From Crateriforma spongiae (GTDB lineage: Bacteria > Planctomycetota > Planctomycetia > Pirellulales > Pirellulaceae): 64,000 nucleotides of DNA. A model generated the notes under the pieces. That model had not been told where the DNA came from. It did no database searches and saw only the letters and a list, made by a program, of their open reading frames with translations. Where the stretch lies: the NCBI RefSeq assembly GCF_012290005.1, contig NZ_JAAXMS010000010.1, forward strand, positions 124,001 to 188,000. Reading direction: 5' to 3'. Below are positions 42,105 through 62,879 of this stretch, piece by piece; position 1 is the stretch's first letter, and each line of letters begins with the position of its first letter. Made by a program: the position numbers and the translations under genes.

Positions 42105-43871
42105 TCAAGTCGAACCGGCATGGCTGGTCGCCGAAACCGGCGAGGCATCGGCTGGCGATTCGACCACCGGCAACGTGCCCAATCTCCGGTGCATTTCCTG
42201 GACACTGCGTGGATACGCCGCGTGGTTTTCGGCAAAGTCGATCGAAACGTCCAACGCGTCCAGCATCTTTTCGGTCTGGCCGTGAAAATGCAGATACGAT
42301 CCCATCAAGGTGTGAGCGTATTCGAACTTGGTCGGCCCCATCAGCGCGGCACGGAAAAAGTTCCGCAGGTACAACCAGCGCGTTGATCGGTCGGACAACA
42401 ACCGCCAAGCGATCGTGCGAAACCCGCGAAACATCCGCCGAAATTCCCAGCCATTGGGAACGTGTTTGTTGACAATCTTGATACGCCGGGTCGTGTCCAA
42501 AACACGATCCATGAACGCTTTGGGGCTGTAAACGGTCGCGATGATCGTCCGCAATTCTTGATAGATTTCCAGCCGATCACGCTGAGTCACAAAATTCAAA
42601 CCGCTAATCGTTTGGTCCTTGGACTCGTTGCTGCGAAGTTCATAATCCGCTGATCCATCGGAAAGCCACTGATGATTGGAATCGATCAGCCGTCGTTCCC
42701 GCGCTAAACGACGCGTCAACTGTGTGTTTGGCAGAGCACTTAACAGCCCGACCATCGACAACGCGATGCCACTTTCCTGGATGAAGCGAATCATCGGACC
42801 ATCAGTTCCCGGTTTATCCGTGTCGAACCCGATGATCAGCCCGGCAGCGATCGAAATGCCGTGATCATAAATCGTGCGCACCCGCTGAATGATGGGCTGG
42901 ACGGTGTTGATCCGTTTTTGGGTATGGATCAACGTTTCTTCGTCAGGCGATTCGATGCCCAAGAAGACATACCGGAACTGAACCTCGCGCATCAGCTTCA
43001 TCAGATCCGTATCGTCCGCCAGGTTGATGCTGGCTTCGGTGGAAAACACAAAGGGGTAATTGTGTTCTTCGTTCCAGGTCTTGATGGCTTCCAGCAATGG
43101 ACGAATCAGTTTCCGATTTCCGATGAAGTTGTCATCAGTGAAATCCACCCATCCGCGATAGCCCAAGTCGTACAGCGTTTGCAGTTCCGCGACGAATTGC
43201 TGTGGCGTTTTCACACGCGGAACGCGACCAAACAATTCGATGATGTCACAAAATTCACAGTTGTACGGACAACCACGCGATGACTGGACGCCGACGTGCA
43301 AATAGTCGTCAAATGAAATCAGATCAAATCGTGGCGTCGGGGTCTTCGTTACGTCCGGTTTGCGTTCGGATTGGAACAATCCTCTCGGATTGCCGTCACG
43401 CCAACTGTCCAGCCAAATCGGAATGGTTGCCTCGCCTTCGCCGGTGACCACCGCGTCGGCATGTTCATAGATGTGGGGTTGGCTGGTCGGATCGGGACCG
43501 CCCACGGCAATGAACTTTCCGTCGGCCTTGGCCTTTTCGATCAGCTTCAAGACGCCGGGCTGTTGCGGCAGCATACCGCCGGTACAGATGACGTCGGCGT
43601 TCCGCCAAGCTTCTTCGTCTAGCGGCCGGACATTCAAATCGCACAGTTCGAACTGCCACGTTTCGGGCAAAAGGGCGGCGACGGTCATCAGCCCCAAGGG
43701 CGGCGCGGTGGCCTTGGCCCCGATCGCCCGAGCACTTTCGACGAAATTCCAGTAATTGGTCGATTCGAAGCACGGCTGAACCAACAGACAACGGATCGGA
43801 CCGTCGGGGCTTTCCGGCAAATGCCCCAGGCCGGCCAATGCGGCATCGTGCAGTGCTTCGGAATCGGACAT
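42105..43871 (-). CDS. B12-binding radical SAM enzyme
   Basis: 588 residues. A cobalamin-binding Rossmann domain (about 26-165) precedes a radical SAM domain with CPYNCEFC (Cys201, Cys205, Cys208), which holds the 4Fe-4S cluster. A C-terminal domain of about 110 residues has the pattern of the DUF4070 extension found in this subclass. B12-dependent radical SAM enzymes of this class include the hopanoid methylases and other methylases of unreactive carbons. It stands alone on the minus strand, divergent from the polyketide synthase gene by 352 bases. Whether it acts on hopanoids, the polyketide product or something else is unknown. Confidence 0.88.
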   Translation of the reverse strand: MSDSEALHDAALAGLGHLPESPDGPIRCLLVQPCFESTNYWNFVESARAIGAKATAPPLGLMTVAALLPETWQFELCDLNVRPLDEEAWRNADVICTGGMLPQQPGVLKLIEKAKADGKFIAVGGPDPTSQPHIYEHADAVVTGEGEATIPIWLDSWRDGNPRGLFQSERKPDVTKTPTPRFDLISFDDYLHVGVQSSRGCPYNCEFCDIIELFGRVPRVKTPQQFVAELQTLYDLGYRGWVDFTDDNFIGNRKLIRPLLEAIKTWNEEHNYPFVFSTEASINLADDTDLMKLMREVQFRYVFLGIESPDEETLIHTQKRINTVQPIIQRVRTIYDHGISIAAGLIIGFDTDKPGTDGPMIRFIQESGIALSMVGLLSALPNTQLTRRLARERRLIDSNHQWLSDGSADYELRSNESKDQTISGLNFVTQRDRLEIYQELRTIIATVYSPKAFMDRVLDTTRRIKIVNKHVPNGWEFRRMFRGFRTIAWRLLSDRSTRWLYLRNFFRAALMGPTKFEYAHTLMGSYLHFHGQTEKMLDALDVSIDFAENHAAYPRSVQEMHRRLGTLPVVESPADASPVSATSHAGST

Positions 43872-44223: not shown

Positions 44224-47200
44224 ATGCCAGCCCCGTCGTCGAAGCCGAATTCCGTCCTGCTGACCGGTGCCACCGGGATGGTCGGATGCCACTTGCTGGA
44301 TCGGTTGATCGACCGCAGACGAAACGTCGTCTGTCTGGTACGCGGGCAAAACGATGATCAAGCCCGCCATCGTGTTGATGAAGTTCTGAAGCGATTCGGG
44401 CGACGATTGGATGATCACGCCGACCAGATCGAGGTCGTGGCCGGTGACCTTTCGGCCGAAGCGGTCGGATTGTCTCCGATCCATCGTGAACATCTGGCGG
44501 CCCGCGTCGACACCGTGCTGCACTGCGCCGCGTCGCTCAGTTTTCGCCCCGCCAGCGAATCGGTACAGGGCGAACCGTACCGCACTAACGTCGACGGGAC
44601 CCGTCACTTGGTCCAACTGGCACGCCAAATCGGTGTGAAGGACTTTCACTACGTGTCGACGGCCTACGTCTGTGGCGCCCGCCGCGGACGCGTGTTGGAA
44701 GCCGATCTGGATCACGGCCAATCGTTCGCCAACGATTACGAACGCAGCAAGTTGTTGGCCGAACAGATGCTGCGGAACACGCCCGGCATCCGAGTCAGCT
44801 TTTATCGTCCGTCGATCGTGATCGATTCGACCGGGCGATCCCCCGTCACCGCAGACCGAACGGTCTACGGCGCCTTTCAAACGTATCGTGCTTTGGCAAG
44901 CCGTTTCGGTCTGCCCCGTGAAGGCGGATGGTTTTCGACTTTGGGCTTCACCGGTGACGAACGCAAAAACCTGGTCGAAGCCGACTGGGTCGCCGATTCA
45001 ATCGTCGCTCTGATGCACAGTCCGCCGCACCATCAATCCACGTACCACTTGACGGCACCGTCGGGAACTCCGATTCAACAATTGGAAACGGCATTCCGCG
45101 AAGCATGTCGGCGCGAGGGCGTAGCCGAACAAAATGGGAATGAATCGGCCGAAGCGTCCGCGGTCTTTCAAACGATGGCTGCCCCGTACGTCCGAACCTT
45201 CCTGCCCTATTTCAACAACGACCCAGAATTTGACCGATCTGCAACCTCCGGTGCTTTGACCGGCTTGGGACGTCCGGTCGCCGGTGACGTCACCACCGGC
45301 GATTTGATCGCGTTGCTTTCGACCGACAAAACGGTTTCACCGGCCAAGATCAAGGCCGAACCGCCCGTCGCACCTCTTGTGCGCGAAGATTCGGACGACC
45401 AAAGCGATGACGGCGATCCGCTGGTGATTGCGGGCTTCGACGTTTGCCTGCCGGGCGGCGCGGTCGGCCGCCAAGCTTTCGCCGACTTGTTGTTTGCCAA
45501 CCGATCAGCGATCGACGAAGTGCCCCACGACCGCTTTGACCGATCACTGTACTTTGATCCGCGCCGCGGCCAAATCGGAAAGTCCTACACCACGTTGGGC
45601 GGTTGCGTGGGTGAATCAGCGATCGGACCGGATGTGGTCGATCGAGCGGCAAGGATCGGGCAATTTGATCCCTGTCACCTGCAATTCGCGACCGTGGCGT
45701 TGTCAGCCTGGCAACATGCCGGCGCCGAAGCCAACGAAGACTTGGCGGCCCGTTGTGGCATCTACGTCGGACACAGTGGCGGAACCAAACTGGGTGGCCC
45801 GCTTGCCATGTCGACCTTGGCCGAAGTGGTGTCCGAACAGATTCGCGAAGTCGCAGATTTCCCGCGCAGCAATGATTCCTTGCGTGGCGAAGTCACCGCA
45901 ACCTTGGCCCGGCGACTTCGCGAAACACGACCGCATCGAAAACTGGACGCTGAAACGCATTTCAATGCCTATTCCGCGGCCTCATTGTCGGCACAACTGT
46001 TGAACCTGGGCGGCCCTCGTGAAGTCGTCGATGCCGCGTGTGCATCGTCCCTGGTCGCATTGCAACATGCGGCCACTGCGATCCAAGCAGGCCGAATTGA
46101 CACGGCGATCGTCGGCGGCGCCACGTACAACAGCGTCGACAATTTGATCCTGTTTTCGCAGTCACAAGCCTGCAGCGACGAACACAGTTGTCCCTTCGAC
46201 GAAAACGCCAGTGGGCTGATCAGCAGCGAAGGATACGTCGCGGTCGTCCTAACGCGTCGCAGCACGGCACGGCATCATGGCTTGAACGAACTGGCTGAAC
46301 TGGTCGGCGTCGGTTTGGCATCGGACGGTCGCGGAAAAAGTCTGTGGGCCCCGCGGACCGAAGGCCAGCAATTGGCGATTCGCCGTGCCTATGATCGTTC
46401 GCCCGCGTTGTCCATCGACTACATGGAATGTCACGCGACCAGCACCCAAGTCGGCGACGCCACGGAATTGACCTCGCTTTCGACCTTGCTGGAAACCGAT
46501 AGCAACCGCGGCCCCGGTCGCCCCTTGGCGATCGGCAGTGCCAAAAGCAATTTCGGACACACCTTAGAAGCCGCCGGGCTGGTTGGTCTGACGAAGGTCC
46601 TCGTTGCAATGCAGCACGAAACGCTGCCAGCATCCCTGAACTTCAAATCACCGACGCCACACTTTGATTGGACGCAAGGCCGCTTAAGCGTGGTGGACCA
46701 TAACCAAGCTTGGCCGGTCAATACAAACCGCCAAGGCAAATCCGCCGCGGTCAACGCATTCGGCATCGGCGGATTGAACGCTCACGCGGTGATCCGCCAA
46801 GCGGGGCCGACCAAGCCCAAAGTACCGAATCACGGTTCAAACCAGTCCGCCGTCCGCGTTCGTCCGGCCGATCGGTCGTCGCGACCGACGCCGGGCCAAC
46901 CGATCGCAATCGTCGGACGCGGCGTGGTTCTGCCGGGTGCGAACAACGTGGCGGCCATGTCCGCGATGTTGGCAAACGGCCGGTCGATGATCGCGTCGCC
47001 TCCCCAAGACCGATGGACGGGCGAAAACGTGTTCGCCGTCGACCGTCAGCCTTTCCGAACACCGCATTGTCTGGGCGGTTATATCCGCGACTATCAGTTC
47101 AACGGTCAACCGTATCGAATCCCGCCCAAGCAAGTCACCTATGCCAACCCGATCCAGATGATGCTGATCGATGCGGTACGGCAGACACTGGATGAATTGG

Positions 47201-50200
47201 GCGAGCCCGCGGATTTCCATGTGCCCGCCGACCGCGCGGTGATCGATCGCCGCCGAACCTCCGTGGTGGTGGGAACGATTTTCGGTGGCGAGTTTTCCAA
47301 TCAGCTACAGGTCGGCATGCGAGTGCCGGAAATCTGCCGACACGTCCGCCAATGCCTTTCTGGTCAAGTCGACGTCGGAACATCCATCGACCGTTGGATG
47401 GATCAGTTCGCCCAGCACCTGATCCATCGCCATCCCGCGATTTTGGACGAAACCGGCAGCTTCACCGCCAGCACTTTGGCTTCGCGTATTGCCAAGACAT
47501 TCGATTTGATGGGCGGTGCGTGTGCCGTCGACGCCGACGACGCATCCGGAATGTTGGCCCTGATGACGGCGGTCGACCAACTGCGGTTTGGTCAAGCGGA
47601 CACGGTGATTTGCGGCGTCGCACAGCGCTCACTGGACTTGGTTGCTTTCGAACAATTGAGCCTGAGAGATCAACTGGTCCGCAGCGGCCGGCCCATCGAT
47701 GTTCCGGACGATTGCCGCCAGATTTTGCCAGGCGAAGGCGTCGCGGTTCTTTTGCTACAGCGTCGCGAAGACGCCTTGAGATCCGGACACAAGATCCACG
47801 GGCTGATCGACCACGTCGGGTGTGAACGCATTGCCGCCCAGCATCGCGAAGACATTCGCTGTGATGCCATGGCCGGTGACAAACTGAATGCGGGATTGGT
47901 TCGTCAGTTCGGCTATCTTTCGGGCGCGCACCCGATTGTCCGAACGGTCGCCCAGTCGATCCGTTGGGCTCAGCCGACCGCCGCCGACGAACCGTGTGAA
48001 TTGTTCGCCGTTGCGGAAGACGGATTCGGTGTCCGCGCATCACTCACCTCAGGTCGATCGGAAAACGACGCCGCTGTCTCCAGTGCAACGGCCCGTCATA
48101 CCGAATCGGCGTCACCGATATCCACGACTTCCGCCGTCCGAGTTTCCGATGAACTGGGTACATCCGCCATGTCGCCACAAGCCACACTAGACGAATCGAT
48201 TCGCCCAGTGGTCTGCCGCACCGATTCGGCCTGTGCCAGTTCGCCACGATGGCTGGTTGCCACCGAAAACGACCAAGAAGCGATCCGCCGGCATCTAACA
48301 AGCTGGGCGGAAGACCCCGATGGCGCGTTTGCATCGTCCACCGCTACATTCTCCGGTTCAACGAGTCGGTTCACAGCAGGCTTGGTCGTCACCGATCACC
48401 AGCGACTTGCCGAACAAGCTTCACGCTTGCTGAAATTGTGGAACCAGGGCACGCGTGTCACGGTGGATGAACGTGCTTGTGGGCTTCTGTGGAAGAACCA
48501 ACCACAGCAGGACCGAGTCGCTTGGCTGTTTCCCGGCCAGGGATCGCAATACCCTCGCCGTCCCGAAATCATAGACCATCAAGCGGAATCCCAACGTTCG
48601 TTGGACGATTTCGACAGGGAACTTCAGACGCTGGGCATTGCGCCCATTGCGAACCGATTGCATGATCCCACACGAACCTTGGGTAAAGATGTCTGGTGGA
48701 CGCAACTGTGGGTCCTGGGCGTCAGCCATGTGATGGCTGATTGCCTGGCCCAGGCGGGAATCCCGATGCACGTCGCAACCGGACACAGTTTTGGCGAATG
48801 CGGCGCGGCGTTGCACAGCGGGGCAATGAATCTGGCCCAATCAATTCGCTTTGCCAAACAACGCAGCGAAGCCGTTCTGACCAACGTCCGGCAATCAGGT
48901 TGTTTGCTTTCGGTCCGTGGCGACGCCAGCCGAATCGCATCGGCCCTGAGTCAAGGCGACTGCGACGTCGTCATCACGCACCACAATGCCCCGCAACAAG
49001 TCGTCGTCGCGGGAACGCCGGACGCCGTTGCCCAAGCGAAGGCCGTGCTTTCCGACGCTGGTTTGGCCGCGGTGGTGATTCCGGTACCGGCGGCCTTCCA
49101 CACGCCGATGATGGAATCGGCGGAAAAGATGCTGCGTCAGACCTTTGCATCGCATCGCTTGCGTCCGCCGGTCTGTCCACTGCTGTCGTCCGTGTCGCTG
49201 CGTTACCTGGCCGATCCCGACGAGATCCTGGAAAACCTGATCAGCCAGCTGACGCGACCGGTTCAGTTCGCGGCAACCATGGATCGGCTGTGCGATGACG
49301 GCGTCGGATTGATGGTGGAAGTCGGCCCATCGGACGTCCTCACACGCTTGTCCCGATCACGAAACGATGACCGCGCGATCGCGTTGTCCTTGGATGCCGG
49401 CGACGATACCGAGCGGCAGCTATCGCTGATCCGTTTGGCAACGACCGTCGTCACTGGTAAGCCATCGGACGTGAATCGTGGGTTGCAGCCACCAATCTCT
49501 GCCGCCACCAACGATGTTCGCCACCCCGAAGTGGATCAACGGATTGTTTCCGGGGCAACCGAGGCGGCGATCACGATTGTCGACGTGACGGACAAGCGGC
49601 GCAAAGCAAGCCAGAATTCAGTACCGCGATCGTCTGGCGAAAGCACAGCGTCACTTTCCGCAGGTGATTCAAACGGTCATCACGTCAATGGCGTTCCCAA
49701 TGGACGAATCGCCAACGGTCACATCAGCAACGGCATCGCTGATTCACACACCCAAGTGAATCATTCGATCCGTGACGTCAGCTCCAACCGCATGCTTCCA
49801 CCGACCGACGCGGTTTCGGCCGTTCATCCAACCACCGGCAATGCTTCCACCGACACGACCGCGAAACAGGCATCTGATTTGTTGGTCAACCTGGTCGTTG
49901 AACTGACGGGATACTCGCCCGACATTGTTGAATTCGATGCCGACCTGGAAGCGGAACTGGGTGTCGACAGCATCAAAAAGGCTCAGATCATCGGCGAACT
50001 GGCCGACTGGTCTGGCATGAAGCTGGATCTGGCCCAGATGAAGTTAAGTGACTACACGACGCTGGGCGACATCCTAAATCTTTATTCCCAGCACTTCGGC
50101 CAACCTGATTGTGGCCAACCCGCTGTGACAGCAGCGGTGGCCCCGGCCGCGTCTCCGCCATCGGTAACCGATGCCGTGGCAATCCCGTCGGCATCCGCGG

Positions 50201-53200
50201 CAATCGTATCCGGCCGTGGATCGCTATCACAATCCGTTTCATCGCTGATGGTGGATTTCGTCGTCGATCAAACCGGTTACTCGCCGGACATTGTCGACAT
50301 GCAAGCCGACTTGGAAGCCGAGCTGGGCTTGGACAGCATCAAGAAGGCACAACTGCTGGGCGAATTGCAGGAACAATACGATCTGTCGGGTCTGGATCTG
50401 GGACAGTTGAAGCTGTCCGATTTCCCAACGCTGGGCAGTATTCGTGATTTCGTTTTGGAACAGCTGGGCGAAGACGTCACGACCGCCACTGAAAAAAAAA
50501 AGCCAACCGACCAAAGTAGCGTCACGCTGACGCCCCAGTCGCTCGACCAGTCAGCGTTTTCGAATCATCGATCGCACCCACATGGATCCGATACCAGTGC
50601 CGTGGCCGAAACGCCACGGGGTCCGATTGGTGGCGTGTCCGTCGAGCCGGCCCAAGGACACGGCAATGGCGTCGCGGTGGGCGTTTCCGATGTCACGCGT
50701 CCGGTCGGAACGACGTTCCCATCAGACAACGGTATTCCAACGACGCCAGAGGTCGAAGCACCGGCCCGCGGGACCTGTCGATTCGCATTGCGGACCGTTC
50801 CCGCAGCACGTTTAACCGGCATGCCGAGGCAACCCAATTTCTCGGGTGATGCAATTGTCGTCGGTCACAACCCGATCGCCGATGAAATCGAACGACGCTT
50901 TGGACAAACAACGTTTCGGTGCCATCGTTTTCCCGACCATTTGTCCAGCCGTGATGTGGACCACTGGCTGGACCATCTGTGGGACCAACACGCCACGCCG
51001 CATCTTTTCGTCACGACACCTCGCGACGACGCTGCGCTGGACACGCTGGATGCCAAAGCATGGGGGAAACGCCGTGACGCCGCGCTGATGACACCGTTTC
51101 GTGTCTGTCAGCGATGGATGCAGCGGATGATTGACGATGACCAAATGGATCGCGCCAGTCTGTTGTCGGTCGTCGATGCGGGCGGCAATTTCGGCTTCGA
51201 TGGTCAATGCATGCCCTCGGCCGAATCGGGTGGTATTGCGGGGCTGACCAAAGCCATGCGAATCGAATCCTGGATGCGTGGCCATCGCGAAACGCCGATG
51301 CTGATCGTCGACGGTGCTCCCGGTGCCACCGCATCGGATGTCGTCGACGGCGCATGGCGTGAACTCGCCCAACCGTCACACGACGAAGAAGTGGTGGTGG
51401 ATGAAGATGAACGCTGGACCATTGATGCCTGCTATCAACCGCTGAACGAATCAGGCGGGCCGGTGGGGCCACCCAGCCGCGGCGGCGTCTGGGTCGTCAG
51501 CGGAGGTGGCCGCGGGATCACCGCGATGACCGCGATGTCGCTTGCCCAGCGTTACGATTTGTCACTGCACTTGCTGGGCACCGCCCCGAATCCGTCGATC
51601 GACGATGCGACGCGAAACGCCGCATCCGCCGATCGAACTCAGTTGCGCCGCGATGTGATTCAACGCGCCCAACGCGAAGGCCAAAATCCGATCGAAACGT
51701 GGCGGGACTTGGAAAAGGCCATCGAAATCGACCAAACGCTATCGCAGTGTCGTCAGCGCGGAATCCGGGCGGTGTATCACAGTGTCGACGTATCCGATGG
51801 GCCGGCAATCAACCAAGTCTTGCAACAAATTCGTACCAGTGACGGACCGATTCGTGGGGTGCTGCACGGTGCGGGTGCCGGTCAAGACGCACGGTTCGAT
51901 CGAAAACGTCCCGACAAAGTCGCCAAATGCATCGGGGCCAAAGTCGACGGATGTCTGCAACTGGCAACCGCCACCAACGATGATCCTTTGGAATGGTTCA
52001 TCGGTTTTGGGTCGATCAGCGGTCGCTTTGGTGCCAACGGCCACACTGATTATTCCCTGGCCAACGACATGCTGGCCAAGTGCATCGACCGTCTGCGTCA
52101 ACAGCGCCCGGACGTCCGCTGCGTTACGTTCCACTGGCATGCCTGGGGCGACATCGGCATGGCGGCCAAACCGGAAGCCAAGCTGGCGCTGGAAATGATC
52201 GGGATGCAATTCATGCCGGCCGATGAAGGGCTGCGGCACTTCATGAATGAACTCGAATACGGTGGTGATCTTCCCGAGGTTTTGATCACCGACCGACGTT
52301 ACATTCGCAAGTTCTTTCCAGGCCCCGCCATGCGGGAAACCGGAAAGCCAGAATATCCGATGCTGGATCCATCGTCGCGTGGGATCGCATCGTCCCAGGC
52401 TCACACCATCACGTTGGACCCGACGGTTGACCACTTTCTGAATCAGCACACCGTCGGCGGAAAACCAACGTTGCCGATGGTCATGGCCATCGAAATGATG
52501 GCCGAAGCGGCTGCACTGCAGGCCGGCCAGCGACGTATCACGGCATGCCGGAACGTCCGCGCGATCGCGGCCTTGAAATTCCACCATGACGACGCGATGG
52601 CATGTGAAGTCATCCGTGAAACGTCGTCATCGGAATCCGATGGGGATGGTACCAACGGCCGTTCCCAGCGGTGGCGTCTGTGCGCCGATCTGCGGCGTGG
52701 CGACGGCCGAATGGTTGAAGAGTGCCGCACCCATTTTTCCGGTGAATTCCTGGTTGAAAACGGTTTGCCCCATCCAGATCCGCCACCGGCTCCGGTGCAA
52801 CACGGCGTTTGGGACGACATTGAATACCTGGGCACTGACGCGCCCGTGTACCACGGTGAATCGCTCCAGTGCTTGCGTAAGGTCATGGTTGATACGGAAC
52901 AATCCAAATTGTGGGGCCGCATCGCATCGCCATCCCCCGCACACTTGGGCGGGGAAGATCGACCGCTGGCGGGTTGGCAGATTCCCTGTGCCGCGATGGA
53001 CGCTTGCTTGTACGCCGCGGCGGTGCTGGCATATCGACTGCACGATCGTCCGTCGCTGCCGGTCGGTTTTGATCAAATCGCTTTGGGACGTCTGCCATTG
53101 GCCGGCGAACCGCTGCTGATTCACTGGTCCGTCGAACAAAGCCTGCAGCATGGCCTGCGTTTGCAAGGCAATCTTTCAGGTCAAAACGGCGACACGATCG

Positions 53201-53238
53201 CTCGATTCGACGGTTACGACATTGGTTGGCTTCGCTAG
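44224..53238 (+). CDS. Single-chain type I polyketide / fatty-acid synthase (SDR-KS-CLF-AT-ACP-ACP-KR-DH)
   Basis: 3004 residues. Domains in order: (1) an extended-SDR, thioester-reductase-like domain (about 8-300; NAD loop GATGMVG 15-21, Ser145, Tyr172, Lys176); (2) ketosynthase (about 399-860; Cys606, His737, His779); (3) a second ketosynthase-like domain (about 892-1330) where the catalytic Cys is Asp1106, as in chain-length factors; (4) acyltransferase (about 1432-1740; GHSFG with Ser1522, His1626); (5) two acyl-carrier domains with LG(V/L)DSIKK, pantetheine Ser1916 and Ser2038; (6) ketoreductase (about 2420-2700; Ser2597, Tyr2610, Asn2614); (7) dehydratase (about 2730-3004; HxxxGxxxxP at His2742, Asp2926). 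KS, CLF, AT, tandem ACP, KR and DH recall PUFA-type lipid synthases, but in one chain and with no enoyl reductase. A Rieske oxygenase, a FabL-like enoyl reductase and an acyltransferase follow. Confidence 0.95.
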   Translation: MPAPSSKPNSVLLTGATGMVGCHLLDRLIDRRRNVVCLVRGQNDDQARHRVDEVLKRFGRRLDDHADQIEVVAGDLSAEAVGLSPIHREHLAARVDTVLHCAASLSFRPASESVQGEPYRTNVDGTRHLVQLARQIGVKDFHYVSTAYVCGARRGRVLEADLDHGQSFANDYERSKLLAEQMLRNTPGIRVSFYRPSIVIDSTGRSPVTADRTVYGAFQTYRALASRFGLPREGGWFSTLGFTGDERKNLVEADWVADSIVALMHSPPHHQSTYHLTAPSGTPIQQLETAFREACRREGVAEQNGNESAEASAVFQTMAAPYVRTFLPYFNNDPEFDRSATSGALTGLGRPVAGDVTTGDLIALLSTDKTVSPAKIKAEPPVAPLVREDSDDQSDDGDPLVIAGFDVCLPGGAVGRQAFADLLFANRSAIDEVPHDRFDRSLYFDPRRGQIGKSYTTLGGCVGESAIGPDVVDRAARIGQFDPCHLQFATVALSAWQHAGAEANEDLAARCGIYVGHSGGTKLGGPLAMSTLAEVVSEQIREVADFPRSNDSLRGEVTATLARRLRETRPHRKLDAETHFNAYSAASLSAQLLNLGGPREVVDAACASSLVALQHAATAIQAGRIDTAIVGGATYNSVDNLILFSQSQACSDEHSCPFDENASGLISSEGYVAVVLTRRSTARHHGLNELAELVGVGLASDGRGKSLWAPRTEGQQLAIRRAYDRSPALSIDYMECHATSTQVGDATELTSLSTLLETDSNRGPGRPLAIGSAKSNFGHTLEAAGLVGLTKVLVAMQHETLPASLNFKSPTPHFDWTQGRLSVVDHNQAWPVNTNRQGKSAAVNAFGIGGLNAHAVIRQAGPTKPKVPNHGSNQSAVRVRPADRSSRPTPGQPIAIVGRGVVLPGANNVAAMSAMLANGRSMIASPPQDRWTGENVFAVDRQPFRTPHCLGGYIRDYQFNGQPYRIPPKQVTYANPIQMMLIDAVRQTLDELGEPADFHVPADRAVIDRRRTSVVVGTIFGGEFSNQLQVGMRVPEICRHVRQCLSGQVDVGTSIDRWMDQFAQHLIHRHPAILDETGSFTASTLASRIAKTFDLMGGACAVDADDASGMLALMTAVDQLRFGQADTVICGVAQRSLDLVAFEQLSLRDQLVRSGRPIDVPDDCRQILPGEGVAVLLLQRREDALRSGHKIHGLIDHVGCERIAAQHREDIRCDAMAGDKLNAGLVRQFGYLSGAHPIVRTVAQSIRWAQPTAADEPCELFAVAEDGFGVRASLTSGRSENDAAVSSATARHTESASPISTTSAVRVSDELGTSAMSPQATLDESIRPVVCRTDSACASSPRWLVATENDQEAIRRHLTSWAEDPDGAFASSTATFSGSTSRFTAGLVVTDHQRLAEQASRLLKLWNQGTRVTVDERACGLLWKNQPQQDRVAWLFPGQGSQYPRRPEIIDHQAESQRSLDDFDRELQTLGIAPIANRLHDPTRTLGKDVWWTQLWVLGVSHVMADCLAQAGIPMHVATGHSFGECGAALHSGAMNLAQSIRFAKQRSEAVLTNVRQSGCLLSVRGDASRIASALSQGDCDVVITHHNAPQQVVVAGTPDAVAQAKAVLSDAGLAAVVIPVPAAFHTPMMESAEKMLRQTFASHRLRPPVCPLLSSVSLRYLADPDEILENLISQLTRPVQFAATMDRLCDDGVGLMVEVGPSDVLTRLSRSRNDDRAIALSLDAGDDTERQLSLIRLATTVVTGKPSDVNRGLQPPISAATNDVRHPEVDQRIVSGATEAAITIVDVTDKRRKASQNSVPRSSGESTASLSAGDSNGHHVNGVPNGRIANGHISNGIADSHTQVNHSIRDVSSNRMLPPTDAVSAVHPTTGNASTDTTAKQASDLLVNLVVELTGYSPDIVEFDADLEAELGVDSIKKAQIIGELADWSGMKLDLAQMKLSDYTTLGDILNLYSQHFGQPDCGQPAVTAAVAPAASPPSVTDAVAIPSASAAIVSGRGSLSQSVSSLMVDFVVDQTGYSPDIVDMQADLEAELGLDSIKKAQLLGELQEQYDLSGLDLGQLKLSDFPTLGSIRDFVLEQLGEDVTTATEKKKPTDQSSVTLTPQSLDQSAFSNHRSHPHGSDTSAVAETPRGPIGGVSVEPAQGHGNGVAVGVSDVTRPVGTTFPSDNGIPTTPEVEAPARGTCRFALRTVPAARLTGMPRQPNFSGDAIVVGHNPIADEIERRFGQTTFRCHRFPDHLSSRDVDHWLDHLWDQHATPHLFVTTPRDDAALDTLDAKAWGKRRDAALMTPFRVCQRWMQRMIDDDQMDRASLLSVVDAGGNFGFDGQCMPSAESGGIAGLTKAMRIESWMRGHRETPMLIVDGAPGATASDVVDGAWRELAQPSHDEEVVVDEDERWTIDACYQPLNESGGPVGPPSRGGVWVVSGGGRGITAMTAMSLAQRYDLSLHLLGTAPNPSIDDATRNAASADRTQLRRDVIQRAQREGQNPIETWRDLEKAIEIDQTLSQCRQRGIRAVYHSVDVSDGPAINQVLQQIRTSDGPIRGVLHGAGAGQDARFDRKRPDKVAKCIGAKVDGCLQLATATNDDPLEWFIGFGSISGRFGANGHTDYSLANDMLAKCIDRLRQQRPDVRCVTFHWHAWGDIGMAAKPEAKLALEMIGMQFMPADEGLRHFMNELEYGGDLPEVLITDRRYIRKFFPGPAMRETGKPEYPMLDPSSRGIASSQAHTITLDPTVDHFLNQHTVGGKPTLPMVMAIEMMAEAAALQAGQRRITACRNVRAIAALKFHHDDAMACEVIRETSSSESDGDGTNGRSQRWRLCADLRRGDGRMVEECRTHFSGEFLVENGLPHPDPPPAPVQHGVWDDIEYLGTDAPVYHGESLQCLRKVMVDTEQSKLWGRIASPSPAHLGGEDRPLAGWQIPCAAMDACLYAAAVLAYRLHDRPSLPVGFDQIALGRLPLAGEPLLIHWSVEQSLQHGLRLQGNLSGQNGDTIARFDGYDIGWLR

Positions 53239-54524: not shown

Positions 54525-55289
54525 TTGATCGATCTATCGGGAAAGACGGCATTGGTGACCGGCGGAAGCCGTGGAATTGGACGCGCATGCGCGCTGCGTC
54601 TGGCCGATTGCGGCGCGAACGTTGCGGTGAACTTCTTGTCGTCACGCGACGCGGCGACCGAAGTCGCCAAACAGATCAATCAGCGTGGCGCCGGGTCGAT
54701 CGCCGTCCGCGCCGACGTCAGTCGTCAAGACGATTGCCATGCGTTGGTGTCCGCCGTCGCTGAGCATTTTGGCGGACTGGACATCGTGATCAGCAATGCC
54801 GCCGCGGGCGGTTTCCGCGGCGTCGCTCAGCTGACCGCACCCAATTTGGAAGCAGCGATCCGCACCAATGCCGCACCGGTCGCATGGCTTTGCCAAGCGG
54901 CAGCGGAGCACTTGGCCGACGAAAATGATTTCGGCAAAGTGATCGCGATCAGCAGCCACGGTTCGATCCGAGCGGTCGATCACTACGCCGCCATCGGTGC
55001 ATCCAAGGCGGCTTTGGAAAGCTTGGTCCGTCACATGGCACTGGAATATGGACGCCAAGGCATCAATTTCAATTGTGTCATGCCGGGAATCGTTCGTACC
55101 GAAGCAGTGTCAACGATGCCGGGCGTTGAAGACGTGTTGGCTGCCGCCAAGGAACGGTTGCTGGTCAGCAAACGCGACTTGTCGCCCAACGACGTTTCCG
55201 GTGTGGTCGCGTTTTTGGCCAGCCGGCAAGCCGACATGATTCAAGGACAAACCATCATTGTCGATGGCGGGATCACCGTCCGTGTTTGA
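54525..55289 (+). CDS. FabL-like enoyl reductase (SDR family)
   Basis: 254 residues from a TTG start. NAD(P)-binding GGSRGIG at 13-19, Ser143/144, then Tyr154 and Lys161. The Tyr-Lys spacing (YxxxxxxK, HYAAIGASK) and the tail ADMIQGQTIIVDGG match FabL, the enoyl-ACP reductase III of Bacillus, better than classic ketoreductases, which have YxxxK. The upstream synthase has a dehydratase but no enoyl reductase, so this gene could supply that step in trans. It lies 78 bases after the Rieske gene, and its 3' end overlaps the acyltransferase gene by 26 bases. A ketoreductase role cannot be excluded. Confidence 0.85.
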   Translation: MIDLSGKTALVTGGSRGIGRACALRLADCGANVAVNFLSSRDAATEVAKQINQRGAGSIAVRADVSRQDDCHALVSAVAEHFGGLDIVISNAAAGGFRGVAQLTAPNLEAAIRTNAAPVAWLCQAAAEHLADENDFGKVIAISSHGSIRAVDHYAAIGASKAALESLVRHMALEYGRQGINFNCVMPGIVRTEAVSTMPGVEDVLAAAKERLLVSKRDLSPNDVSGVVAFLASRQADMIQGQTIIVDGGITVRV

Positions 55290-56634
55290 CTGGCGCGCGA
55301 CCACCGCATTCGAAAGATTCTTATACCGCTGTGATCCCGGCGGGCCATCGATGACGTTCCGCATCGAAATCGGCTTCGACCACCCGGTGTGCCCGGAACG
55401 GATGCAAAATGCCATTGCACAAACCTCGACGTGGCACCCCATCCTGTTTTGCCGGCTGACCCAAAACCAGCATCATTGGATCTGGGAACCGTGCCCGATG
55501 AACCCCGGCGAATGGCTCGGTGTTTCTTACAGCCCGGATGCCTTGCCGGCGATTGATCCCACAACATCGGCCGGTTTTCGATTCAGCCAAGGCCGAGGTG
55601 CCGACGACGTCCAACGGCTCGCGTTCGACTTTCATCACGCATCGGTCGATGGCATCGCGGCGGCCAAATGGACCGCCGGCGTCCTGCGTTGCTATCACGA
55701 CGAAAATCCTATCGACGGCGGCAGGGAACATCGTGCCAAGGACGACATCGTCCAAGGTCAGCTACGGCAACGACACAAGATGCCGGTTCCCGACCATGGA
55801 CCACCGATCGGATTCCTGGAAGGTCTCCGCAATCTTTGGTCCACGATCCGCGGCAAATCGATTCGGTATGCACCTTTGACGACGCGGCAAAGTGATTTTG
55901 TGGGACAATCGGGTGATCCGTCGGAACCCCAAGCCGACAATGATCATGTGATGTCGCTGAACTTGCCCCCTCATTTGTCACAACGCAGCCGCGAATTTGT
56001 CGCTCAATCCAAGATCCCTTTGAACGATGTCGCCGTCGCTGCCACCTTTCGAATGTTGGCAGACGATCCAGCACTTCGGCATCAACACGGACGTTTGATG
56101 ATCAACAACCCGGTCAATTTGCGAACGATACGGCAGCGTCGTTTTTCGGCGTGCAACTACACCGGGTTGGCATTCCTGCGGCGGCATGGCCAAGAAGTTC
56201 GACGGCACGATCTGCTGTCGGGCTTGCACCGCGAAATGAACTACATCCGCCAGCGTTGCGTGGCCGCAGAATTTTTGCGAGGCCTGGAAGCGGTGGATCC
56301 CCATCCGTCGGCACTGCGATACATCCAGCGGCGTCGCTGGTTCGATGCGACGGCGTCGATGACGTGTCTGTCCAGCGTTCGAATCGGCCGTCGACACGGG
56401 GCCCAGCCCTGTGAACAGGGTTGGCAGTTCGGTGACAACACGCTGCGGTCGATACGCATCGTCCCCCCTCGACCGGCCGGATCATCGTTAGCACTGTCAC
56501 TGAACGACTCTCTGGGCCGTCTTTGTTTGACCGCACGATCAGATCCGACAGCATTGTCGTTTACCGAAACGCAAGATGGATTGCAGCGTTGGGTGAATCA
56601 TTTCAGCGAACTCATGTTGCCATCCGGCCGCTAA
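55264..56634 (+). CDS. HHxxxDG-type acyltransferase (condensation / wax-ester-synthase superfamily)
   Basis: 456 residues from ATG 55264 (an in-frame TTG at 55258 is the alternative), overlapping the FabL-like gene by 26 bases. The motif HHASVDG (124-130) is the HHxxxDG signature of condensation, wax ester synthase and PapA-type acyltransferases, where the second His is the catalytic base. The size and two-lobe pattern fit this superfamily, and the second lobe is well conserved in hydrophobic and Arg positions. These enzymes esterify acyl chains to alcohols or amines. As the last gene of the group it is a candidate for releasing or capping the synthase product, which is inference. Confidence 0.85.
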   Translation: MAGSPSVFDWRATTAFERFLYRCDPGGPSMTFRIEIGFDHPVCPERMQNAIAQTSTWHPILFCRLTQNQHHWIWEPCPMNPGEWLGVSYSPDALPAIDPTTSAGFRFSQGRGADDVQRLAFDFHHASVDGIAAAKWTAGVLRCYHDENPIDGGREHRAKDDIVQGQLRQRHKMPVPDHGPPIGFLEGLRNLWSTIRGKSIRYAPLTTRQSDFVGQSGDPSEPQADNDHVMSLNLPPHLSQRSREFVAQSKIPLNDVAVAATFRMLADDPALRHQHGRLMINNPVNLRTIRQRRFSACNYTGLAFLRRHGQEVRRHDLLSGLHREMNYIRQRCVAAEFLRGLEAVDPHPSALRYIQRRRWFDATASMTCLSSVRIGRRHGAQPCEQGWQFGDNTLRSIRIVPPRPAGSSLALSLNDSLGRLCLTARSDPTALSFTETQDGLQRWVNHFSELMLPSGR

Positions 56635-57895: not shown

Positions 57896-59278
57896 CTAGG
57901 GATCGTCAGGACGAACGATGCTGATCGCGGCTTCGTCTTGTTCGGCGCCAGGTTCAATTTCGACGTCGAAATCCGGTTGTGATTCTTTCAAGCGACGACG
58001 CGCCTCGCCCGCCCAAGGGCTTTCCGGCGACAAATGCAGAAAACGTTTCCAATGCTGTTCCGCTTCGATGTCGCGTCCCGAATCGGCCAACAAGTTTGCA
58101 ACGTGATAGTGCGCATCGGGATAGTCCGGGTGCAATGACAAGACGCCGCGAAATGCCGCGATCGCCAATTCGTCTTGCCCCAATTCCGCCAGCACCATTC
58201 CCAAACAAGCTCGGGCTTCGACCAATTCCGGGTCCAGTTCGATCGCCATGTAAAAGCGTTCTCGGGCGGCCACCGGCTCATTCATCCGGTAAAGCCATTC
58301 GCCCAGCTGGAAACAAATGTCGGCGCGGGGGCCGTCGCGAGCCAAGATGGCGTGGCAACAATCGATGGCGGTTTCCAAATCATCGCGATCATCGGCTTCG
58401 AACGCCGCGACCAACAATTCATCATCACTGGCCAGTGCATCAGCGTGTGCCAGCGGCGCTTCCCACGATTCGATCGGAAAGACGACGTCATCATCAACCG
58501 TTTCGGGCTCACTGGGCTCACACGCATCAAAATCGAAACGCATTTGACCGCCCGTTTCGATCAAGCCTTCGCCGCCACGCAATAAGACGTGCTTGCCTTC
58601 GACCAGAATCGACAACTGATCCAAGGGACGCTGGATGTCGGGCAGAACTTCGATCAAATCGACCAAACGCTGTTCGATCGCTTTCGGGCTGGCTCCCGCA
58701 TCGATCCACTGGGCCAATCGCTTGGCAGTCGCGACTTCTTGAAAATCAAAGTAGGGCAACCGATGCATGGTGCGAACCGGGCGAATCAGCCCGCGGCGCT
58801 GCCACCGCCGGATGACGTGTAGCGGGATATCCAAAAGGTCCGCCAACATCATCGGCGTGTAATACTGTCGACCGACCGTGTCGGTTTCCACCAATCCCAA
58901 ACGTTGCCACAAATCGGCTTCGGCAATCAGTTCGGTGTCACCCTTGCCGACCGCATCACGCAGCGACGCGGGCAACAATTCATGCTGAGTCAAAGGAGAT
59001 TCATCGGCGCCGATCACGACCCAATGAATCGCGTCCTGGTGGGCATCGACGATGGTCGCACCAAACGACCGAAGTAAATTGGTCGCTTCGCGGCGGTTCA
59101 TGCTGCCCAATCGCCCGGCCAAGGCGATCCGAATGCCGTCGATCATCCCCGGTGCTTGGGTCACCACGGGCGCAGTATCTTGGTCCTGATCCATCGGATC
59201 GATCGGTTCGTCGTCGCTTTGATCGATGTCATCCATGCTCGAATTATCGCCCTGGTCCGGTGATATGCCAAGCTGCAT
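57896..59278 (-). CDS. BRCT-MerR-TPR protein
   Basis: 460 residues from ATG 59278 (an ATG at 59236 would drop an acidic leader). Domain order: a BRCT-like domain (about 47-127, GIRIALAGRLGSMNRREATNLLRSFGATIV and a Trp before the C-terminal helix), then a MerR-like winged helix (about 140-205, MLADLLDIPLHVIRRWQRRGLI), then a helical TPR region (about 300-420, CHAILARDGP, ARERFYMAIELDPELVEARACLGMVLAELGQ). BRCT domains usually bind DNA ends or phosphopeptides, MerR domains bind DNA, TPRs bind proteins, so a DNA-associated scaffold or regulator is plausible. It lies divergent from rnpB by 202 bases. I know of no characterised protein with this order. Confidence 0.78.
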   Translation of the reverse strand: MQLGISPDQGDNSSMDDIDQSDDEPIDPMDQDQDTAPVVTQAPGMIDGIRIALAGRLGSMNRREATNLLRSFGATIVDAHQDAIHWVVIGADESPLTQHELLPASLRDAVGKGDTELIAEADLWQRLGLVETDTVGRQYYTPMMLADLLDIPLHVIRRWQRRGLIRPVRTMHRLPYFDFQEVATAKRLAQWIDAGASPKAIEQRLVDLIEVLPDIQRPLDQLSILVEGKHVLLRGGEGLIETGGQMRFDFDACEPSEPETVDDDVVFPIESWEAPLAHADALASDDELLVAAFEADDRDDLETAIDCCHAILARDGPRADICFQLGEWLYRMNEPVAARERFYMAIELDPELVEARACLGMVLAELGQDELAIAAFRGVLSLHPDYPDAHYHVANLLADSGRDIEAEQHWKRFLHLSPESPWAGEARRRLKESQPDFDVEIEPGAEQDEAAISIVRPDDP

Positions 59279-59480
59279 CGGGCGATCGTGCACCCCGGAA
59301 TTGCAAACCACACCCGCCGGCGTGGGCGAGAGAAACGATTACACCGCCCCGGTCGTTTGACGCCAATGCTTTCATCGCTTGGTGCCGTGCTGCGGCCGAT
59401 CAGCCGCCTGAGGGGCTACACCGGCGATCGCCGCACTTGTCGATGACGGACGCGCCAGTCATCTTGGACCCCGATCGCTT

Positions 59481-59978: not shown

Positions 59979-61067
59979 CTATTCCAACAACGCGACTTCG
60001 ATTTCCAAACCGGGCCCGAATCCCAACATCAACCAGGGCCGTGGCAAATCACGATCGGCGAATTGACGCAGCACCGCGGGCATGGTTGCCGACGACATGT
60101 TGCCGTGCTCCGACAACACGCTTCGGGATGTGGCCAATTGCTCGGGTTGCAATCCAAGGGAAGACTCAACCGCGGACAAGATTCGAGTCCCACCGGGATG
60201 CACCGCCCAGCCTTGGATCGATTCGATCGTATGGCCCCGCTTGGCAAGCCATGGGGTCAAGAAATCCACCAACCCGGCTTCGATCAACGACGGGACGGTG
60301 GCCGACAGTGTCATCTCAAATCCATGGTCGCCGACTTTCCATGTCATCGCATCGCGGCTGTCTGGCACCAAACACGAACCGGTTTCCACCAAAGTTGCAA
60401 GCGATGGCTTTTGGGAATCACGTCGCAACACCATCGCCGCCGCACCGTCGGCGAACAACGCACCGGAAACGATTCGGTTGGCATCATATCCGTATTGGTA
60501 ATGCAAACTGCACAGTTCGACACAGCACAGCAACACGTTGGCGTTTTCGTTGGCAGCCAGCAGTCCTTGGGCGGCTCGCAATCCGTTGATCGCACCGTGA
60601 CATCCCATGAATCCCACTTGGACGCGTTGCGTTTGCGCGGGCAATCCCAAACGCTGGATCAGTTCAATATCCACGCCGGGTGCGGCAAAACCTGTGCAAG
60701 TCACGACCACCAAGTGGGTGACCTGACTGGGATCAAGTCCCGATTCATCCAGCGCGATTCGCGACGCATCGGCGGCCAGTTGCGGTGCGTGATCGGCGAA
60801 TTGTTGGCTGCGGACGGCGGTCGTCGGACCACGATCTTCGTGATCGACCGCGGGTGGAAAGAAATCTTGTTCGACCGTGCCACACGCGGCCTCGCTCAAC
60901 AACACGCTGCCTCGCGACTGCACACCGCTGCGGCGGTACAGAGCCTCCAAACGACGGCGTTGCTGATCGCTGGAACAGGACAACTGTTTGGCGACTTCGC
61001 TAGATTTTTGTCGACAGATACTGACCGGGGGGACGGCAAAACCGATCCCATCAAGCGTCACATTCAC
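59979..61067 (-). CDS. Type III polyketide synthase
   Basis: 362 residues from a GTG start at 61067 with AGGGA six bases upstream. The catalytic triad of the chalcone/stilbene synthase family is intact: Cys156 in GFMGCHG, His290 in WAVHPGG and Asn323 in EHGNMSS. These homodimeric enzymes extend acyl-CoA starters with malonyl-CoA and cyclise the chain to resorcinols, pyrones or phloroglucinols without an acyl carrier protein. The preceding gene encodes a methyltransferase, a common partner in bacterial alkylresorcinol/alkylpyrone operons. The flavoprotein oxygenase often seen as a third gene is missing. The starter (fatty acyl or other) is not predictable here. Confidence 0.95.
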   Translation of the reverse strand: MNVTLDGIGFAVPPVSICRQKSSEVAKQLSCSSDQQRRRLEALYRRSGVQSRGSVLLSEAACGTVEQDFFPPAVDHEDRGPTTAVRSQQFADHAPQLAADASRIALDESGLDPSQVTHLVVVTCTGFAAPGVDIELIQRLGLPAQTQRVQVGFMGCHGAINGLRAAQGLLAANENANVLLCCVELCSLHYQYGYDANRIVSGALFADGAAAMVLRRDSQKPSLATLVETGSCLVPDSRDAMTWKVGDHGFEMTLSATVPSLIEAGLVDFLTPWLAKRGHTIESIQGWAVHPGGTRILSAVESSLGLQPEQLATSRSVLSEHGNMSSATMPAVLRQFADRDLPRPWLMLGFGPGLEIEVALLE

Positions 61068-61126
61068 TCAGGTCCCTTCGCATACTTTTCGCTTCGAATC
61101 CGCCCCATCCGACGCCACTGCGACGG

Positions 61127-61855
61127 TCAGGCGAATGCAGGAACGATCGCGGGAACCGCAATTTCGTCAATCCTAACCACCCAACAGCCGGGTACCAGCC
61201 TTTCCACATCAACGGGTCTAGCCAGCGCCCGGTGTACGATCCCGCGAAACTCCTCTCGCGTAAAGGCCGCGTAGACCGAATCGATTGCGTCTTTCCGCAA
61301 TGCCGGTGATCGTGACACCAATCGCGACGCGGCCCAGGCGGCCGCCAGATTGGTCCGCGATCGTTCCCAATCACACAGCAGCAGACCGGATGCCGCCATC
61401 TGCATGGACTGAATCAACCGGATCGCTCGGGCATCGTCCACCCGATGCATCCACAGCGCACACAGGATGACATCAAACCCGTCGGGCAATCCTTGGCGGA
61501 ACACGTCGCGACACACGACGTCCGCGTTCAGCTTCCAACGATCCATCATTTGCTGTTGTTGGTCCAGCGACCAAGGATCTGGAACCAACACCGTCATCTG
61601 CAGAGGCAAACCGCGGCGGTCGGCCGTGTCGACCAACTGCAGGGCCAAGTCATCATCGCCCGATGACAAATCCAACACCCGCAGCGGGCGGCCCGGTCGC
61701 CGACGAGCAAACCGCACCAGATGACCAAACAATGCACCGGAGATCCCGGCCAAGGCGCCGATACGGCAATGGCCCCGCATGACAGCGATTCGTTCCGCAT
61801 CATCAGCGTCCGCTCGATCGTCCACAGCGGGAAAAGGTCGTCGCGGTAGGCTCAT
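61127..61855 (-). CDS. Class I SAM-dependent methyltransferase-like protein
   Basis: 242 residues from ATG 61855, which lies 10 bases after the ldhA stop. A Rossmann fold follows the order of class I methyltransferases: motif I LRVLDLSSGDDDLALQL (about 58-74), a second strand (LQMTVLVPDP), then DVILCALWMHRVDD (motif IV-like). Motif I is unusual, because the Gly-rich stretch is SSGDDD rather than GxGxG, so SAM binding is weaker evidence than usual. It lies between a lactate dehydrogenase and a type III polyketide synthase, and O- or C-methylation of the polyketide product is the likely role. Confidence 0.75.
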   Translation of the reverse strand: MSLPRRPFPAVDDRADADDAERIAVMRGHCRIGALAGISGALFGHLVRFARRRPGRPLRVLDLSSGDDDLALQLVDTADRRGLPLQMTVLVPDPWSLDQQQQMMDRWKLNADVVCRDVFRQGLPDGFDVILCALWMHRVDDARAIRLIQSMQMAASGLLLCDWERSRTNLAAAWAASRLVSRSPALRKDAIDSVYAAFTREEFRGIVHRALARPVDVERLVPGCWVVRIDEIAVPAIVPAFA

Positions 61856-61865
61856 GCGGGCATCA

Positions 61866-62879
61866 TCATTCACTGCGGTCGACGATTTCGTTTTCAACCG
61901 CCTGGCCAGATTCAAAACCATCCAAATTGGTCAACGTCGTCATCGCGATCGACCGCATCGCATCGCTTGTGAAAAACGCCTGATGTGCCGTGATCAGAAC
62001 GTTCGGAAACGTCATCAAACGTGTCAGCACGTCGTCTTGGATGATTTGGCTGGACAGATCATTGAAGAACAATCCGGATTCTTCTTCGTACACATCCAGG
62101 GCAAGTCCGCCCAAGTGCCCCGATTTCAAACACTTGATCGCGGCGGCCGCATCCACCAAACCTCCTCGCGATGTGTTGACCACAATCGCGCCCGGTTTCA
62201 TTGTCTGCAATGCATCCGCGTCGATCAAATGATACGTGTGGGGGTTCAACGGGCAATGCAGCGACACAATGTCTGATTCAGCCAGCAGACGTTCCATCGA
62301 AACGTATTCCCCCAGCGATTCCATCTCAGGATCGGTGTGCACGTCGTACATCAGACACCGACATCCAAACCCGCTGGCAATCCGCGTGAACACCTTGCCG
62401 ATTTCACCGGTGCCGACGATTCCCACGGTGCGTCCGTGCAGGTCGAAACCGATCAGCCCTTCGAGCGAAAAATTGTTGTCGCGAACGCGATGATACGCGC
62501 GATGAATTCTTCGATTCAACGTTAACAGCAAACCCATCGCGTGTTCGGCCACCGCGTAGGGGCTGTACTTGGGCACGCGAGCGGCGCGGATTCCGAAATC
62601 TGCCGCCGCTTTCAAATCAATGTTGTTGAACCCCGCACACCGCATCACCACAAAGCGAATGCCGGCGACTTTCAACGCTTCCAAGACTTCGCGATCCAGC
62701 CGATCGTTGACGAACGCACAGATCGCATCCGATTCATCGGCCAGCACGACGGTATCGCGGTTCAATTCTGGCTTTAGGAATCGAAATTCGTGTTGAGGCA
62801 AATCCGCATCACGCGACTTCAAAGCTTCGTCAAGAAACTGACGGTCGTACGACTTGGTACTAAAGCAGGCAACTTTCAT
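61866..62879 (-). CDS. ldhA: D-lactate dehydrogenase (2-hydroxyacid dehydrogenase)
   Basis: 337 residues from ATG 62879, which overlaps the lgt stop by four bases (ATGA). The NAD loop is GIVGTGEIG at 153-161, and the catalytic set is Arg238 (NTSRGG), Glu near 266 (YEEESG) and His299 (ITAHQAF). The sequence follows fermentative D-lactate dehydrogenase (LdhA) closely through GFDLHGRTVGIVG and RLMTFPNVLITAHQAFFT. It reduces pyruvate to D-lactate with NADH. Its place between lgt and a methyltransferase in one tight operon is unexpected for a fermentation gene and may be simple co-expression. Confidence 0.92.
   Translation of the reverse strand: MKVACFSTKSYDRQFLDEALKSRDADLPQHEFRFLKPELNRDTVVLADESDAICAFVNDRLDREVLEALKVAGIRFVVMRCAGFNNIDLKAAADFGIRAARVPKYSPYAVAEHAMGLLLTLNRRIHRAYHRVRDNNFSLEGLIGFDLHGRTVGIVGTGEIGKVFTRIASGFGCRCLMYDVHTDPEMESLGEYVSMERLLAESDIVSLHCPLNPHTYHLIDADALQTMKPGAIVVNTSRGGLVDAAAAIKCLKSGHLGGLALDVYEEESGLFFNDLSSQIIQDDVLTRLMTFPNVLITAHQAFFTSDAMRSIAMTTLTNLDGFESGQAVENEIVDRSE

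Follow-up and report, generated by a model that had tools for sequence, protein, structure and literature searches.

A putative planctomycete branch of omega-3-type fatty-acid synthases, with an N-terminal thioester reductase domain in Crateriforma spongiae

A 64,000-nucleotide stretch of Crateriforma spongiae DNA, hereafter the window, contains a single-chain megasynthase that, among the ketosynthases (KSs) compared, appears to represent a planctomycete lineage of its own within the omega-3-type fatty-acid machines. On balance, the domains of this protein and its neighbouring genes argue for an iterative secondary-lipid synthase that would release its chain reductively as a long-chain aldehyde or alcohol, which would subsequently be oxidised and esterified.

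The first-pass annotation had described one 3004-residue protein holding KS, a CLF-like KS, AT, two ACPs, KR and DH, and both Pfam searches and motifs confirm this composition; the domain order is supported as well (Table 1). The thioester reductase (TR) domain matches NAD_binding_4 (thioester/fatty-acyl reductase) in Pfam over residues 13-260 with an E-value of 1e-45, scores 156.2 bits against the PF07993 cut-off of 20.1, and carries YxxxK at residue 172. The KS N/C match covers residues 399-807 and is followed by the second KS stretch. The active cysteine of the first KS lies in DAACASS at 603, and the second KS has VDADDASG at 1102, where the cysteine is missing. Further motifs are GHSFGE in the AT at 1520, the ACP serines in LGVDSIKK (1912) and LGLDSIKK (2034), the Rossmann motif GGGRGI of the KR at 2427, and HxxxGxxxxP of the DH at 2742. 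PKS_DH_N matches residues 2723-2797 with 26.6 bits, slightly below the cut-off of 27, and neither an ER domain nor a FabA-type DH was detected by Pfam. Catalytic residues are widely conserved among the aligned copies: the TR tyrosine and lysine in 35 of 36 (the remaining copy has a gap), the AT serine in 68 of 68, and the DH histidine and aspartate in 39 and 38 of 39, respectively.

Table 1. Features of the window, with positions counted from its first nucleotide
Feature	Position	Strand	Remarks
Whole megasynthase gene	44224..53238	+	One intact ORF, 3004 aa, TR-KS-CLF-AT-ACP-ACP-KR-DH
N-terminal thioester reductase (TR) domain, aa 1-365	44224..45318	+	PF07993 (NAD_binding_4)
Condensing ketosynthase (KS), aa 398-872	45415..46839	+	Cys-His-His intact
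CLF-like second KS, aa 890-1300	46891..48123	+	Active-site Cys missing
Acyltransferase (AT), aa 1434-1709	48523..49350	+	Pfam; GHSxG
ACP 1	49879..50079	+	PP-binding; LGVDSIKK
ACP 2, limits approximate	50250..50450	+	PP-binding; LGLDSIKK at 50323-50346
Ketoreductase (KR), aa 2421-2642	51484..52149	+	Pfam; motif conservation
PKS-type dehydratase (DH), aa 2680-3004	52261..53235	+	Pfam; conserved His/Asp
Rieske non-haem iron oxygenase, 396 aa	53256..54446	+	Recurrent; 15/79 kept loci
FabL-like SDR, probable trans enoyl reductase	54525..55289	+	PDB 3oic match; SDR in 23/79 kept loci
HHxxxDG acyltransferase, condensation/PapA/WS-DGAT fold	55264..56634	+	Motif and predicted fold; 12/79 kept loci
Conserved protein, 382 aa, with N-terminal helix	56687..57835	+	Kept near synthase in fused subclade
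B12-binding radical SAM protein (DUF4070), divergent	42105..43871	-	Adjoins synthase also in G001, L035, L037, L038
Type III PKS and methyltransferase-like gene	59979..61921	-	6.7 kb downstream of synthase

The entire fused ORF is also present in a second genome of the same genus (G001), with 2999 codons and 92.7% amino acid identity to the window synthase. Every domain of the window synthase is under purifying selection relative to this ortholog, with low dN/dS throughout (TR 0.061, KS 0.091, CLF 0.077, AT 0.079, ACPs 0.156, KR 0.058, DH 0.163); the four measured linkers range from 0.33 to 0.83. The low value of the second KS, which has no active cysteine, indicates that it is kept for function, as a CLF would be. 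Cys-His-His is lacking in 72 of 177 KS rows, every one of them a second KS domain: 71 belong to this family and one is the CLF of Persicobacter PfaC. A frame or assembly artefact was considered and is ruled out by the occurrence of the same fusion, under purifying selection, in G001 and by five further fused loci; the synthase of one of these, L035, is broken only inside the KS, at a stretch of unknown residues.

When 84,980 species genomes were scanned with a CLF profile, 100 candidates were confirmed; the best 80 of these, at 79 loci, were kept. All 79 of these loci are planctomycete by record name or, where tested, by KS placement. Nine are named 'Candidatus Kuenenia', a planctomycete name, and three are named only 'bacterium' (L060, L086, L095) and have KSs that fall inside the family clade; records of Neorhodopirellula pilleata, Aporhodopirellula aestuarii, Rhodopirellula solitaria, Blastopirellula marina and Bythopirellula polymerisocia are also included. 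In an even sample of 294 genomes of the phylum, with at most seven candidates scored per genome, 52 genomes match the CLF profile at 1e-30 and seven of these at 1e-110 or better, all seven from the window's family or class. The remaining 45 are read as probable ordinary KSs from the three that were inspected, in which the match falls on the first KS.

The most careful tree comprises 56 KS domains, with FabF as outgroup and the family thinned to 26 rows. In it, all 26 group together as a single clade (100/100) that lies outside the Type P, PfaA-like planctomycete and modular PKS KSs. The PfaA/PfaC part of the KS phylogeny proposed in the first-pass annotation is covered by this tree, and the window family falls outside both the PfaA and the PfaC branch. 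Two other KS trees likewise keep the family together: the first, from which 21 near-duplicates among 105 KS rows had been removed beforehand, was built without FabF and has a long PfaC branch, and up to 12 named family rows had been removed before the second. The family is thus a distinct planctomycete KS clade among the KSs compared, beside which Type R and Hgl are set by published domain order only. Larger synthases of 3585-3804 residues, with two tandem KR regions ahead of the DH, occur at L025, L027 and L028. In L062, L074, L076, L078, L097, L104, L107, L108, L109 and L110, the main synthase is accompanied by an additional adjoining KS-CLF module that often has ACPs of its own.

Among the papers listed by searches of the open-licence PMC literature, none was seen to describe this family, and neither 'Rhodopirellula' nor 'Blastopirellula' occurs in the main text of Shulse and Allen (PMC3098273). 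An hglE-KS cluster was reported in Kothea flammea by antiSMASH in a 2026 paper (PMC13190842). Among the plasmid-record matches listed (30 of 1260, 5 of 260 and 50 of 1301) and the regions inspected, no row is annotated as Hgl or enediyne. The case against a planctomycete type of its own would have been a described group with the same domain order and a known product, and no relative of known product was found.

The window synthase carries KS, ACP and KR domains and tandem ACPs, the domain set by which secondary lipid synthases are broadly defined: at least one KS, ACP and KR, typically with tandem ACPs, according to Shulse and Allen (PMC3098273). A single-chain PUFA synthase producing cis-polyunsaturated acids, as the term 'PUFA-like' in the first-pass annotation suggested, is nevertheless highly unlikely. 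Such a reading draws on the ACP motifs and kinds of domain, which resemble those of PfaA/PfaC, and on the PfaA model TIGR02813, the best NCBIfam match of the window synthase. This match is, however, in pieces and reaches 583.3 bits, below the cut-off of 1010.1, and the best TIGR02813 match in a search of the whole own genome reaches 383 bits. In the positive control, a Persicobacter plasmid cluster (L114), the true PfaA scores 2529.7 bits, and beside it are encoded PfaD (648 bits) and a PfaC in which FabA domains occur twice. Of nine planctomycete genomes searched, the own genome (97.8% complete) included, one (G037, not the own genome) has a TIGR02813 match above cut-off, and none has PfaD (TIGR02814). 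Together with the lack of a PF07977 (FabA-like DH/isomerase) match in the window synthase and the position of its KS, these results argue against a PUFA product. As far as tested, a standard pfa operon is absent, as the first-pass annotation had stated. Its planctomycete lipid-synthase type is upheld by the separate KS clade; the PUFA-like product class is not, since the FabA-type DH/isomerase and PfaD are missing.

Hgl systems have a reductive TR partner and yield a fatty alcohol. Type F, in which HglC contains KS-CLF-AT and acts with HglE and other partners, has no DH/I as described (PMC3098273), and by that description shares with the window synthase both the KS-CLF-AT order and the absence of a FabA-type DH/I. 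Unlike Hgl, the window synthase is one chain that includes the TR, and there is no evidence of a glycolipid. In the zeamine cluster, homologues of PfaA, PfaC and PfaD are joined by a reductase, by the thioester reductase Zmn14 and by a condensation-domain protein (PMC3547906), and the zeamine chain is termed a polyamino alcohol in PMC13291983. The window cluster resembles zeamine (Zmn10-14) in that a secondary lipid synthase goes together with a thioester reductase, one more reductase and a protein of the condensation-domain kind, but zeamine differs by a PfaC-type FabA-like DH, PfaD, an aminotransferase and an antibiotic product. By analogy, zeamine and, by published domain order, Hgl would be the nearest functional models for the window synthase.

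PfaA-PfaD have the same kinds of KS, CLF, AT, tandem ACP, KR and PKS-type DH as the window synthase, which lacks PfaD and the FabA-type DH/isomerase, and its KS is outside both branches. Type R, given as KS-MAT-CLF-ACP(3-6)-KR plus a PPTase gene in PMC3098273, is by that description likewise a single PfaA-like protein with CLF, but the order in the window is TR-KS-CLF-AT-ACP2-KR-DH. The pfa of Emiliania huxleyi is described as one ORF in PMC4882568, so that together with Type R the single-chain layout has precedents. The Type P (Ars) protein of Beijerinckia indica ATCC 9039 scores 1156 bits, exceeding the PfaA cut-off in contrast to the window synthase, and its KS, the only Type P row, is in a different clade.

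The TR of the window has its best solved matches in MxaA, an NRP peptide synthetase chain and a type I PKS chain. Reductase domains of PKS/NRPS systems release chains. Among the 79 loci kept from the best 80 of 100 candidates, 32 have the TR as an ORF by itself and five have it fused; the window and G001 are two fused cases beyond these. In 27 loci, a synthase or ACP ORF in the same orientation comes immediately after the free TR. In the TR tree, for which the L036 copy was too short, the five fused copies form one group (SH-aLRT 80) that needs one change, and the nearest rows, those of L039 and L041 (a set of seven with support 100), have the TR as a free ORF that, by first start codon, overlaps the synthase start by 65 bases. 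Six fused rows (window, L035-L038 and L040) also form one clade in the KS trees, with a support of 99 in the first and 100 in the second, and the fused TR is restricted to one Rhodopirellula-type subclade. A free TR upstream in relatives and a single change on the tree indicate that the N-terminal TR is best explained, from sequence comparison, as an upstream neighbour gene that was fused on.

A C-terminal tail of 90-181 residues is present on 33 of the 37 free TR rows in the TR tree. Ten tails were scanned: that of L087 passed the SCP2 cut-off with 26.9 bits, those of L085 and L098 resemble SCP2 or an alkyl-sulfatase C-terminal domain below cut-off, and no domain was named in the other seven. 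The gap between the TR and KS matches is 19-100 residues in the fused relatives and about 32 in the window, and the tail of the free TR was therefore lost or reduced in the fused proteins. TR linkage is common, not universal: of the 58 loci whose 5' end is visible, 23 showed no TR in the retrieved stretch, some of these being short contigs (L035 is treated as free TR in this count owing to its split), and in G018 the TR is about 13 kb away from the KS.

The N-terminal position that had struck the first-pass annotation as opposite to the usual one of release domains is real; a separate, inverted mode of release is not supported, as the TR is a separate gene in most of the kept loci where it was seen and its fusion needs one change on the tree. 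Because the TR acts on an ACP-bound thioester and is a separate protein in relatives, its location needs no new chemistry. It is very unlikely that the TR loads or primes, by supplying an aldehyde or acting on another carrier, rather than releases: location at the chain start would fit such a role, but this is accounted for by the fusion of an upstream gene, and the similarity is to PKS/NRPS reductase domains.

The order Rieske, SDR and acyltransferase after the synthase is found in L035-L039 and L041, and L040 has the SDR and acyltransferase. The best PDB match of the SDR is 3oic, an enoyl-ACP reductase (172.6 bits, versus 128.6 for the next), and its NCBIfam FabL score (NF005975) is 249.9 bits, below the cut-off of 328; by similarity, enoyl rather than keto chemistry is probable for this protein, which is FabL-like only. 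The HHxxxDG motif of the acyltransferase is invariant in 15 aligned rows. Its Pfam sequence match is below cut-off, and membership of the superfamily is supported by this motif and the predicted model (pTM 0.83), which matches AzeD (Z 31.3, top), PapA5 (Z 24.8) and WS/DGAT (Z 22.5). Neither of the two fold alignments includes genome-retrieved loci, and one also omits L040.

The conserved 382-residue protein has a counterpart downstream of the synthase in L035 and L036, whereas in L037, L038 and L040 the counterpart is encoded upstream on the opposite strand; its AlphaFold model is poor (mean pLDDT 57.6). No Pfam family above cut-off was found for the L028_2-type neighbour. A protein combining a MerR-type HTH with TPR repeats is encoded at 57896-59311 on the reverse strand. 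No PPTase is among the window cluster genes scanned; a PPTase is present in 15 of the 79 kept loci, and the own genome has two ACPS-family genes, PPTase candidates, away from the cluster. The tailoring set varies among the 79 kept loci: the acyltransferase type of the window occurs in 12, another HHxxxDG-like type in 15, AMP ligases in 8 and metallo-beta-lactamase-fold proteins in 7.

Type III PKS, methyltransferase-like and 2-hydroxyacid dehydrogenase genes occupy 59979-63002 on the reverse strand. They are like the planctomycete alkylresorcinol operons described in PMC10896814, but the oxidoreductase differs. The synthase might accordingly be thought to make alkylresorcinol starters for the type III PKS, like the Ars type I FAS in Azotobacter, and the presence of a type III PKS near the synthase in G001 too, and somewhere in nine of 12 family genomes searched, speaks in favour. 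Against it, no type III PKS match at 1e-20 was found in three of the 12 family genomes with the synthase (G018, G037 and that of L035), of which G018 and G037 are 99 and 100% complete, and in G019 a distance of 1.7 Mb on a single contig separates the two genes, which in G036 and G026 are on different contigs. The 79-locus scan, in which no type III PKS appears, reaches only 3.4-4.9 kb past the synthase (seven checked), short of the distance to the type III PKS in the window. Neighbours of planctomycete type III PKS operons are conserved only among close relatives (PMC10896814), the KS does not group with the Type P KS of Beijerinckia, and a reductive TR is ill-suited to acid transfer. Absence in three genomes and distance in G019 mean that the type III PKS is not a fixed partner; such a partnership was rejected as the main role, and the alkylresorcinol reading is very unlikely.

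In the iterative lipid synthase favoured here, the identities of the domains suggest that the tandem ACPs would receive malonyl from the AT, that the KS/CLF pair would elongate the chain iteratively and set its length, and that KR and DH would process each beta-keto group. The missing enoyl reduction may be provided in trans by the FabL-like SDR, after which the finished acyl-ACP would pass to the TR domain for release of the chain as an aldehyde or alcohol. Oxidation of the chain may fall to the Rieske oxygenase, and the HHxxxDG acyltransferase may esterify the alcohol, adding another acyl group. The predicted product is a long-chain, partly oxidised fatty alcohol ester.

It is rather unlikely that the product is instead a polyketide or polyene specialised metabolite, partially reduced and tailored by the Rieske, SDR and radical SAM proteins, and not a structural lipid. 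The modular PKS KSs are, weakly (86/87), the nearest compared group to the family KS clade, and since this is nearest to them and not to PfaA/PfaC, the tree is as compatible with a polyketide as with a lipid. A polyketide would also suit the absence of an ER domain, a neighbourhood that includes a tailoring oxygenase and a B12 radical SAM protein, and the variation of neighbour sets among relatives. However, the CLF, tandem ACPs and FabL-like SDR favour repeated full reduction, and the SCP2 lipid-carrier similarity of some free-TR tails points away from a polyketide.

Planctomycetes have unusual envelopes, and to our knowledge few of their specialised lipids are known. The analysis defines a planctomycete gene family (best 80 of 100 candidates, 79 loci) that bears on a possible new lipid class, and the natural fusion links a likely release reductase to its synthase. 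We suggest, tentatively, that this planctomycete-only KS-CLF clade with reductive release may make undescribed long-chain alcohol-based envelope lipids, which would be esters, possibly hydroxylated mid-chain, and a counterpart of the heterocyst glycolipids.
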